A model generated the notes under the pieces. It did no database searches. It was not told the origin of the DNA and worked only from the letters and a program-made list of their open reading frames with translations. From Gammaproteobacteria bacterium (GTDB lineage Bacteria > Pseudomonadota > Gammaproteobacteria > Steroidobacterales > Steroidobacteraceae), in assembly GCA_028293805.1 (NCBI GenBank), contig JAQGOC010000110.1, forward strand, positions 1 to 32,291: DNA of 32,291 bases, given 5' to 3'. Shown here piece by piece: positions 2,294-4,658 of the stretch. The position numbers and the translations under genes are program-made. Each line of letters opens with the position of its first letter. Within the stretch, counting starts at the first letter, position 1.

Positions 2294-2830
2294 ATGAAGT
2301 TGAACAGGAATATCGCGTTGTTGGTCGCGGCGATGGCGGGCATCGGCACCGGTGCGGCTGTTGCGACTGCAGCCGAAACGACGACACCGGCCGCGACCAC
2401 GGCCGAACCCGCTGGCGGCGACCATCATCACTGGCGCGATCATCATGGCATGCTGGTCGGCATGACATTACGCGCCGCCCGGCAGCTGAACCTGACTGCC
2501 GAGCAGCAGGCGAACATCAAGACCTTGCTGAGCACCGCCCGGACGCAGCAGAAGGCGGCCAAGGCAGCGGCCCAGGGCGGCCCGGTCGATCTGACGGTGC
2601 TGGCCAGCCCCGGTGATCCCAATTACGCGGCGGCGCTGCAGAGTGCCAAGACGCTTGCGACGACCCGGATCCAGCGCGAAAGCGAGCTGCAGGGGCAGAT
2701 CTACAACGTTCTGACGGCCGAACAGAAGACCCAGCTCCCGACGGTTCTCGCCTCGATGAAAGCAAAAGCTGCGCAGCGTCGTGCCGCTTGGCAGCAAAAG
2801 CATACGTCGGGTAGTAGCGACAGCGGTTGA
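2294..2830 (+). CDS. Spy/CpxP-like LTxxQ periplasmic protein
   Basis: A 178-residue exported protein. The first 30 or so residues (MKLNRNIALLVAAMAGIGTG onward) form a signal peptide ending near VATAA. After it come a His-rich patch (DHHHWRDHHG) and two LTxxQ-type motifs, LNLTAEQQ and VLTAEQK. These mark the Spy/CpxP family of small alpha-helical periplasmic chaperones or stress sensors. The protein between them is predicted all-helical and rich in Ala, Gln and Lys. The frame is open from 2153, but the ATG at 2294 has GAGG nine bases upstream and starts a proper signal peptide. A hairpin follows the gene, separating it from the DUF2844 gene. The His cluster could bind metal, which is speculation. 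The family call is fair; the exact function is unknown. Confidence 0.8.
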   Translation: MKLNRNIALLVAAMAGIGTGAAVATAAETTTPAATTAEPAGGDHHHWRDHHGMLVGMTLRAARQLNLTAEQQANIKTLLSTARTQQKAAKAAAQGGPVDLTVLASPGDPNYAAALQSAKTLATTRIQRESELQGQIYNVLTAEQKTQLPTVLASMKAKAAQRRAAWQQKHTSGSSDSG

Positions 2831-2915: not shown

Positions 2916-3404
2916 ATGAAACAGTCGAATCGCATGTGGCGCGTGCTGGATGGGAGAATGCCGGCCGCTGCGCTCGGCATGGCGTTACTGACTGGGTCGG
3001 CGGCGATGCCGGCTTTCGCGGCATTGGGCGATGATGTCGCCTCGATAGAGAACGATCGAGTCCAGATGAAGGGCCAATTGCGGCTCACGTCCGTCGCCGG
3101 TTACTCGGTGCACGAGCTGCAGTTGCCTTCCGGAACCGTCGTCCGTGAATATGTCTCATCGGGTGGAAAAGTCTTCGCGGTGAGCTGGCGCGGGCCTGCA
3201 ATCCCGGATCTGCAGCAGACGCTCGGGACGTACTTCGAGCAGTACAAGGCTGCCAGCGGTACGACCGAACGGGGCCATCATCACCTCGCCGTCAGGGAGC
3301 CGAGCCTCGTCGCGCATGCGGGCGGGCACATGCGGGCCTGGGCCGGGCAAGCCTACGTGCCGGGACTGCTGCCGCCGAATTTCTCAGTCGACGACATCAA
3401 ATAA
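2916..3404 (+). CDS. DUF2844 domain-containing exported protein
   Basis: A 162-residue protein with a signal peptide (MALLTGSAAMPAFAALGDD region, cleavage probably after AFA). The mature part matches the DUF2844 pattern: a short basic and polar start, then GYSVHELQLPSGTVVREYVS, VFAVSWRGPAIPDLQQTLG, and a C-terminal GQAYVPGLLPPNFSVDDI. DUF2844 proteins have no established function. They are found in beta- and gammaproteobacteria next to DUF3443 genes, as here, where the next gene starts 12 bases after this stop. I chose the ATG at 2916 because AGGAA precedes it by five bases; the frame is open from 2859. The pair is likely one transcript with a shared envelope role. Whether DUF2844 acts on the DUF3443 protein as partner, propeptide or inhibitor is not shown by the sequence. 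Confidence 0.85.
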   Translation: MKQSNRMWRVLDGRMPAAALGMALLTGSAAMPAFAALGDDVASIENDRVQMKGQLRLTSVAGYSVHELQLPSGTVVREYVSSGGKVFAVSWRGPAIPDLQQTLGTYFEQYKAASGTTERGHHHLAVREPSLVAHAGGHMRAWAGQAYVPGLLPPNFSVDDIK

Positions 3405-3416
3405 CGAGGAATGTCA

Positions 3417-4658
3417 GTGCGCAGAATCGTCTATTTGGCATGCATTCAGCTGGTGTTTCTGGCCGCCTGCGGCGGCGGCTCGGGTGGCAATATTGTCGGT
3501 GGCGGCGGAACGATTCCAGCCTCCGGAGACAACGTTGCGCAGATTGTCGTGGATGCCGGGCCACCCAGCACCATCGGCACTTTCAACACCCCGTACGTTA
3601 CCGTCATCGTCTGCGTGCCGGGTAGCACGACCAACTGCCAGACCATCGATCACATCGATGTCGACACGGGCTCATATGGGTTGCGAATCGTTGCCTCGGT
3701 GCTCAATACGCAGTTTCTGGCTGCCCTCCCCCAGGAGTCGGACGCAATCGTCCACAATCCGATCGTGGAGTGCACGAAATTCGCGGACGGTTTTGCCTGG
3801 GGCTCGATCAGGACCGCGGACGTGCACATCTCCAAAGAGGTGGCCGCCAACGTACCGATCCAGGTGATCGGCGATCCTGGCTTTCCGAACATACCGCCCG
3901 CTTGCTCCAGCGCCGGAAGGGCGGAGAACACCGTGGCCACTTTCGGATCCAACGGCATCCTGGGCGTAGGGCCTTTCGTGCAGGACTGCGGCGGGGGCTG
4001 CGTGAACTCCATGGCCACCGGCCTGTACTACATCTGCCCGCAGGGAGGCACCACCTGCAACCAGACTACGGTGACCCTTGCGCAGCAGGTCGCCAACCCG
4101 GTCGCCAGCTTCGCGACGGACAACAACGGGGTCATCATCGAGCTGCCGTCCATTCCAGACGCAGGTGCCATGACAGTCACGGGCTCCATCGTGTTCGGCA
4201 TCGACACCCAGAGCAACAACGGGCTGGGCAAGGCCGTGGTGCTCACCACCGACCCCAATGTCGGGAATATCACGGTGACCTACAAGGGCGCCGCCTTTCC
4301 CAACAGCTTCATCGACAGCGGCTCGAACCTGAATTTCGTCAACGACAGCTCGATTCCCCTCTGCGCGACGAACACCACGGCAGCGGGCTTCTTCTGCCCG
4401 AACGCGGAGCTCAATCTCACCGCCTCGAACAGCGGCGCGAACAACGTGACTTCGGCGGTGAGCTTCAACATCGCCAACGCCAACACGATATTCAACAACA
4501 ATATGACCTTCACGGCGTTCAACAACCTCGCGGCCCCGAATACCGCCGACCCGCAGAGCTTCGACTACGGCCTGCCGTTCTTCTTCGGCCGCAACGTGTT
4601 CACGGCGATCGAGGCCAGGAACACCTCGGGCGGCATGGGCCCGTACTTCGCCTATTGA
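3417..4658 (+). CDS. DUF3443 lipoprotein with pepsin-like motif order
   Basis: A 413-residue predicted lipoprotein (lipobox LAAC, Cys18) followed by a Gly-rich linker. The fold region resembles DUF3443, a family of unknown function. By eye it carries the landmarks of a bilobed A1 (pepsin-like) aspartic protease in order: IDVDTGSYG with Asp83, NGILGVGPF (hydrophobic-hydrophobic-Gly, 181-183), TGSIVFGID (about 256-264), FIDSGSNLNF with Asp300, and PFFFGRNVFTAIE (389-391). Pepsin shows DTGS, ILG, a GSV(V/L)FGG strand, DTGT and ILGD...VFD in the same order. Protease activity is inferred, not demonstrated. GAGGA abuts the ATG at 3411 directly, too close for initiation. The in-frame GTG at 3417 sits six bases after it and gives a clean signal peptide (MRRIVYLACIQLVFLAAC), so I chose it. 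Confidence 0.85.
   Translation: MRRIVYLACIQLVFLAACGGGSGGNIVGGGGTIPASGDNVAQIVVDAGPPSTIGTFNTPYVTVIVCVPGSTTNCQTIDHIDVDTGSYGLRIVASVLNTQFLAALPQESDAIVHNPIVECTKFADGFAWGSIRTADVHISKEVAANVPIQVIGDPGFPNIPPACSSAGRAENTVATFGSNGILGVGPFVQDCGGGCVNSMATGLYYICPQGGTTCNQTTVTLAQQVANPVASFATDNNGVIIELPSIPDAGAMTVTGSIVFGIDTQSNNGLGKAVVLTTDPNVGNITVTYKGAAFPNSFIDSGSNLNFVNDSSIPLCATNTTAAGFFCPNAELNLTASNSGANNVTSAVSFNIANANTIFNNNMTFTAFNNLAAPNTADPQSFDYGLPFFFGRNVFTAIEARNTSGGMGPYFAY

Follow-up and report, generated by a model that had tools for sequence, protein, structure and literature searches.

The question raised by this locus is whether the gene at positions 3417..4658 (+), which encodes a member of DUF3443 (PF11925), specifies a pepsin-type aspartic protease exported as a lipoprotein, as a sequence-only reading of the window (the whole analysed stretch of 32,291 nucleotides) had proposed. 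The answer appears to be yes, with a probability of roughly 0.8: DUF3443 would be a two-lobed, pepsin-fold aspartic endopeptidase that reaches the cell envelope as a lipoprotein, with a catalytic role and a location that we infer from the sequence and from a structural model.

The open reading frame gives a protein of 413 residues from GTG 3417, or of 415 residues from an alternative ATG at 3411. GTG 3417 is probably the better start, since the sequence GAGG at 3406-3409 sits 7 nt before it and 1 nt before ATG 3411; V-R-K/R, which is found just ahead of the signal at the equivalent point in several relatives, fits the same start. Residues are numbered here from ATG 3411, which adds two to the numbers counted from GTG 3417, so that D85 and D302 are the Asp83 and Asp300 of the sequence-only reading. 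The product is a full-length DUF3443 protein in Pfam (E 9.5e-131, 436.5 bits against a curated cut-off of 25, profile positions 4-367 of 367), and is described here as a predicted pepsin-fold lipoprotein from this match, an AlphaFold2 model and a Foldseek search. NCBIfam gave a chance-level match (E 0.18) and no protease model, and a search of a defence library gave no match at E≤0.1. The assembly to which the window belongs (5.77 Mb, 89% complete) carries one copy of DUF3443.

The comparison with pepsins had been drawn from DTGS at 83 and DSGS at 300, with the two Asp residues 217 apart, from ILG at 181-183 and FFG at 389-391 (beginning at 183 and 391 in the present numbering), and from TGSIVFGID before the second Asp and VFTAIE near the end. 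All of these are present in the translation of 3417-4658, and the observation as a whole holds for the sequence. The motif pair on its own is suggestive only, since two D[TS]G[ST] motifs also arose in 312 of 200,000 shuffles of the window protein (at least one motif in 11,848).

Conservation, which had been named beforehand as a property able to speak against a protease, is what decides. It was read from an alignment of 97 distinct proteins, the window's included, which were obtained from 111 matching open reading frames in 106 loci after removal of duplicates and three partial proteins; from alignment A3, L005 (a fragment) and L001 (the window again) were left out. Of the 97 rows, 96 have Asp at the first position (D85, D-T-G-S at 3663..3674 (+)). 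The second (D302, D-S-G-S at 4314..4325 (+)) is Asp in all 96 ungapped rows, the sole gap belonging to L033, a relative described below. The first motif takes the form DTGS or DSGS in 90 of the 97 rows; for the second, 93 of the 96 ungapped rows show DSGS, DTGS or DSGT, and Gly and Ser/Thr are almost always retained in both. The distance between the two Asp residues ranges from 202 to 256 with a median of 215 (95 rows with both). Each motif is followed by a hydrophobic-hydrophobic-Gly element, ILG in lobe 1 (3957..3965 (+); Gly185 in 97/97) and FFG, then Arg394, in lobe 2 (4581..4592 (+); Gly393 in 95/97), so that a D-T/S-G-S/T motif in each lobe and the element after it, as in the aspartic protease superfamily, are both in place. 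Among the 387 columns the first Asp ranks 19th and the second 17th in conservation, and the three most conserved are W130, in first place, R92 and R394. A paralogue, L106:545-2317 (+), has NTGA instead of DTGS and lies without an upstream DUF2844 gene; it is possibly an inactive copy, and some DUF3443 copies may accordingly have lost activity.

Proposals for the fold could be compared with a model. AlphaFold2, given 84 aligned sequences, returned a model of the window protein with a pLDDT of 92.0 and a pTM of 0.89, in which residues 1-31 (signal and linker) fall below 50. Foldseek aligned this model with 499 PDB chains at E≤0.001, and every one of the 50 listed is a pepsin-type aspartic protease; the best among those listed is penicillopepsin (3app, E 6.2e-11), and the others include endothiapepsin, BACE, rhizopuspepsin, plasmepsins, Candida Saps, and renin. 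In these 50 rows the alignments span 403-474 columns with gaps counted, the matched chains being 323-402 residues long. The TM-scores, at 0.37-0.48 by query and 0.41-0.59 by target, are modest. Because of the modest scores, the lobes of DUF3443 may be set differently from those of pepsins. In contrast, the same model gave 0 matches at E≤0.001 against viral models, and a model of the DUF2844 protein gave 0 matches at E≤0.001 against the PDB. The fold check that had been suggested for the protein thus came out in favour of a pepsin-type protease, as a confident prediction that aligns with two-lobed enzymes at modest TM-scores, and the predicted two-lobed fold is that of the aspartic protease superfamily at the level of the clan.

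Sequence comparisons point to a different neighbour within this superfamily than the one first proposed. At E≤1 the window protein had no match to PF00026 (pepsin family A1), nor did any other Pfam protease model match it. No protease was found among PDB sequences by phmmer with the window protein, by a family-profile search, or with L107, a bridge protein introduced below. In hhalign, the DUF3443 profile (alignment A1, 84 rows, with L102, L022, and the second copies of L012 and L002 left out of 88 non-redundant sequences) aligned weakly with four PF00026-type bacterial proteins taken jointly and with two of the four taken singly. Of these 84 members, three match Asp_protease_2 weakly (best E 0.0053) and one matches PF20729, the PE_PGRS C-terminal aspartyl peptidase-like domain, at E 1.6e-5 in hmmscan. 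Neither the window protein (at E≤1) nor any of 24 other DUF3443 proteins scanned singly (E≤0.1 or E≤0.5) showed a match to PF20729. When PF20729 was searched against genomes, weak matches to DUF3443 genes appeared over lobe 1, none of which reaches the 33-bit cut-off; they depend on search filters, since hmmscan of L060, L078, and L014 singly did not reproduce them at E≤0.5.

Five of the ten PF20729 search matches are not DUF3443 proteins (L107, L133, L135, L136, and L138). They make up a neighbouring uncharacterised PE-PGRS_C-like group, in which L133, L135, and L136 have lipobox-like N-termini; L107 alone is over the PF20729 cut-off, and no PF20729 match was listed for L133 scanned singly. 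The 84-row DUF3443 profile aligned with these five proteins at 97.0% in hhalign, with both Asp motifs in register and a pairwise E of 9e-11 over 260 columns, a score inflated by the signal and lipobox region that these columns take in. Singly, L107 (91.4%) and L136 (93.4%) aligned over lobe 1 only. L107 itself matches PE-PGRS_C (E 5.3e-10, over cut-off) and DUF3443 (E 0.0013, under cut-off) in the same motif region. A profile of the five proteins found the PE_PGRS16 domain (4ehc) as its sole PDB match at E≤1, with E 1.4e-4 (0.025 for lobe 1 alone and 1.4 for lobe 2 alone), a match to be expected and not independent, as PF20729 had served to select the five. Lobe 1 and lobe 2 of the family profile, compared with each other, aligned at the two Asp motifs only (3.3%, E 0.013), which is not significant; in pepsin, according to Rawlings and Bateman (2009; PMC2761423), similarity between the lobes is likewise confined to the surroundings of the Asp and of the hydrophobic-hydrophobic-Gly motif. 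Overall, predicted fold and profile place DUF3443 within the aspartic protease superfamily, at a shorter distance from the PE-PGRS_C group than from A1 itself. The pepsin-type reading is supported by the fold and the Asp conservation, with the qualification that the nearest sequence relatives found are PE-PGRS_C-like domains (as in PecA and PE_PGRS16) and not shewasin-type PF00026 proteins.

The residues around the putative active site differ from those of pepsin. Trp39 is the pepsin residue that follows the first motif. By an ungapped count from each Asp or Gly, which gives likely positional equivalents, its place is taken in DUF3443 by Arg92, seven residues past the first Asp (3684..3686 (+); Arg in 95/97). 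A flap-like hairpin, F124-x5-W130-G131 (3780..3803 (+)), is formed in the model by strands 117-124 and 127-140; judged by the register of this hairpin, F124 (Phe 91, Tyr 5, Leu 1; n=97) is likely to stand in the place of pepsin Tyr75. R394 (Arg 89, Lys 6; n=97) would occupy the place of Asp303 and S305 that of Thr218, the latter with Ser in 93 and Thr in 3 of 97 rows and one gap (Ser/Thr in 96/96 ungapped). By position, then, Trp39, Tyr75, and Asp303 of pepsin appear to be replaced. The roles of Tyr75, Thr218, and Asp303 in pepsin are set out by Rawlings and Bateman (2009; PMC2761423), and that paper also describes a Sinorhizobium sequence with Arg at 303 as likely inactive because its hydrophobic-hydrophobic-Gly motifs are missing; DUF3443, in contrast, retains these motifs. 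A near-neutral pH optimum, as might be expected from the change of Asp303 to Arg through less adaptation to acid, was considered and dropped: the pH optimum is not predictable from these residues, since a residue-based prediction of the same kind failed for shewasin A.

The N-terminus reads by eye as that of a lipoprotein, with a signal peptide that ends in the lipobox L-A-A-C (3459..3470 (+)), whose Cys is Cys20, followed by a Gly-rich linker. The lipobox column holds Cys in 87 of 97 rows. Within the domain, nine columns are Cys in 94-97 of the 97 rows, and a tenth is Cys in 87, which fits an oxidising compartment. In lipoprotein sorting, the absence of an Asp at position +2 points to the outer membrane. 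Lipidated Cys20, which is not followed by Asp at +2, and the Gly-rich linker would tether the protein to the envelope, probably to the outer membrane. The domain match begins about 20 residues after the lipobox Cys, and this stretch is mostly of low pLDDT, so there is no room for a pepsin-like prosegment. The absence does not call for a partner, since shewasins, which likewise have no prosegment, show activity although no partner of theirs is known. Some DUF3443 proteins carry additional N-terminal Ig-like domains (ASH/HYDIN-like in L026, L048, L053, and L055; Big_2 in L102), and one of the 84 members in A1 matches PASTA.

Directly upstream lies a DUF2844 gene (PF11005, E 4.1e-39) at 2916..3404 (+), whose product has a signal-peptide-like N-terminus by eye. 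ATG 2916 is the more likely start of a frame that is open from 2859, and the stop lies 12 nt before GTG 3417. The arrangement is frequent: with L030 (a fragment) set aside from 114 distinct rows and 13 rows with fewer than 900 bases upstream uncounted, 100 rows have 900 bases or more of upstream sequence, and in 89 of them a DUF2844 gene immediately precedes, in the same orientation (101 of 111 before removal of duplicates). One of these 100, L136, is the PE-PGRS_C-like protein and not DUF3443. It is among the 11 rows without an upstream DUF2844, together with four second copies of tandem pairs (L002, L003, L004, and L012) and six DUF3443 genes that have the room (L050, L103, L106, L113, L140, and L141). 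In the tandem loci, of which L004 is the same place as L035 and L057, a single DUF2844 gene precedes the first copy where the contig reaches; the contig of L003 ends within its first copy.

The DUF2844 protein was modelled with a pLDDT of 84.2. Its matches to 4k61, a DUF2874 protein (E 0.085-0.09, probability 0.6), and to 4fr9, a BLIP-like protein (E 0.24, probability 0.47), are too weak to use; they would fit the idea that DUF2844 is an inhibitor and prove nothing. Farther upstream, at 2294..2830 (+), is a gene for an LTXXQ-like exported protein (PF07813, E 9e-5, 23.6 bits, just below the cut-off of 24.3), which possibly belongs to the same transcription unit as DUF2844. LTXXQ-like frames were also seen in five other loci, upstream of the pair in L012 and L021 and downstream in L044, L048, and L051.

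In the order to which the window belongs, 22 genomes out of 196 have DUF3443, its own genome included; the own genome is likewise counted in any other draw that contained it. DUF3443 was also found in 11 of 398 genomes phylum-wide (10 over cut-off), and in 10 of 155 genomes of the order that contains the L033 genome (6 of 119 in an overlapping draw). In one bacterial family, that of genome G444, it occurs in 67 of 150 genomes, with up to 7 matches per genome; this family is probably Burkholderiaceae, as suggested by plasmid matches in Burkholderia, Paraburkholderia, and Caballeronia. No DUF3443 was found in 14 control genomes. For comparison, PF00026 occurs in 5 of 299 genomes in a similar phylum-wide draw (4 over cut-off). 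Thirty-two loci bear mainly Proteobacteria and Acidobacteria labels, and also those of Myxococcales and Syntrophaceae. Of five matching plasmid records, four annotate the gene as DUF3443 and one lists no gene. L140 and L141 are divergent plasmid-borne members (about 29% identity). Both lack DUF2844, and in each case a gene for a TAXI-family TRAP solute-binding subunit lies upstream. A weak partial match below cut-off (L067, G332:C33:30355-30594; E 3.9e-4, profile 42-125) lies in an open frame of 4118 residues.

One relative differs in the order of its lobes. L033:946-2274 (+), from the Syntrophaceae MAG UBA7544, follows a DUF2844 gene and shows a signal with a lipobox-like Cys, then profile positions 174-367 (lobe 2), and then 3-174 (lobe 1), in one open frame of 443 codons with a stop after lobe 1; both Asp motifs are present. 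It is the only swapped-lobe case among the 10 matching genomes of its order. On this one MAG contig, a pepsin-type protein thus appears to have undergone circular permutation in nature. A misassembly could also give such an order, but it would need several in-frame joints.

The following scheme may be proposed for the protein as an exported endopeptidase. Once it is tethered to the envelope, D85 of lobe 1 and D302 of lobe 2 would bind a water molecule and activate it for attack on the peptide bond, each Asp sitting in a psi loop closed by the hydrophobic-hydrophobic-Gly strand, and the hairpin with F124 and W130 would close over the substrate. The exported DUF2844 protein, from the gene directly upstream, would most likely aid folding of the protease or restrain it. 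A more ambitious version, in which DUF2844 and DUF3443 constitute a two-gene envelope-anchored protease system across Proteobacteria, Acidobacteria, and other groups, with DUF2844 doing the job of a prosegment in trans, an Arg in each lobe replacing Trp39 and Asp303, and a lobe order that can be swapped by natural circular permutation (L033), is put forward tentatively and is rather unlikely. It is rated a little lower since shewasins are active without a prosegment. It is a little less likely still that the protease is confined to maturation, with its own linker, DUF2844, or tandem partners as its few substrates, instead of serving generally in the envelope. This would be a narrower form of the endopeptidase reading and overlaps with it; the flexible linker, the frequent pairing with DUF2844, and the tandem copies (e.g. 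L002, L004, and L012) are consistent with it, as is PecA, a related surface protease that, according to Burggraaf et al. (2019; PMC6819658), cuts itself and other PE_PGRS proteins.

The protein may also have kept the fold and lost the cutting, so that it binds a ligand or another protein. Plant TAXi-type xylanase inhibitors are pepsin-fold binders of this non-cutting kind. That W130, R92, and R394 are more conserved than either Asp would agree with such a role, as would the replacement of Trp39, Tyr75, and Asp303 and the NTGA of L106. Phe is a common replacement of Tyr75, and Rawlings and Bateman (2009; PMC2761423) state that homologues with Phe75 had been neither characterised nor found active; for PE_PGRS16, the solved relative, no activity was seen in the study of Burggraaf et al. 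(2019; PMC6819658). Against such a role stand the Asp kept in 96/97 and 96/96 rows and the Gly and Ser/Thr beside it, which are almost always retained. Rhizopuspepsin with Tyr75 changed to Phe is reported as weakened in activity (PMC2761423), and the related PecA acts as a protease in Mycobacterium marinum and requires the Asp of its first motif (PMC6819658). Loss of catalysis is considered distinctly unlikely. Far less probable again is a beta-rich envelope lipoprotein with chance motifs and no kinship to aspartic proteases; it would agree with the shuffle count and with the want of a Pfam protease match for the window protein, but the Foldseek fold match, the hhalign profile homology, and the Asp conservation speak against it. 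An exported aspartic endopeptidase is thus retained as the best explanation.

DUF3443, PF11925, and DUF2844 were not named in the open-licence literature searched, a body of 5.39 million papers that excludes preprints and most subscription papers. Pfam still describes DUF3443 as a 'Protein of unknown function', and the plasmid annotations state no function; the link to aspartic proteases may already stand in Pfam clans, InterPro superfamily lines, or MEROPS. If the present reading is true, DUF3443 is an exported branch of pepsin-type proteases with a wider reach than the known bacterial ones. A family so far uncharacterised would then have a catalytic hypothesis that can be tested, along with DUF2844 as a partner gene, and the origin of two-lobed aspartic proteases could be studied in one group more.

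Compared with pepsin A1 (PF00026), DUF3443 shares the two-lobed fold, predicted here, and a D-T/S-G-S/T motif with a hydrophobic-hydrophobic-Gly element in each half; it differs in the lack of a PF00026 match and, by position, at Trp39, Tyr75, and Asp303. The lipobox and DUF2844 are not known from mycobacterial PE_PGRS systems. The C-terminal domain of PE_PGRS proteins (PF20729; PecA and PE_PGRS16, 4ehc) resembles DUF3443 in being bacterial and exported, with an aspartic protease fold and DTG/DSG motifs, whereas these mycobacterial proteins, unlike DUF3443, are type VII secretion substrates with PE/PGRS domains, and PecA is presented as a surface-associated exception (PMC6819658). Pepsin homologues were described in seven bacterial species by Rawlings and Bateman (2009; PMC2761423), none with a signal peptide and all predicted to be intracellular, and shewasin D is reported to be mainly cytoplasmic. 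Shewasins are like DUF3443 in having no prosegment; DUF3443 differs from these published bacterial homologues in its lipobox and its conserved Cys columns.
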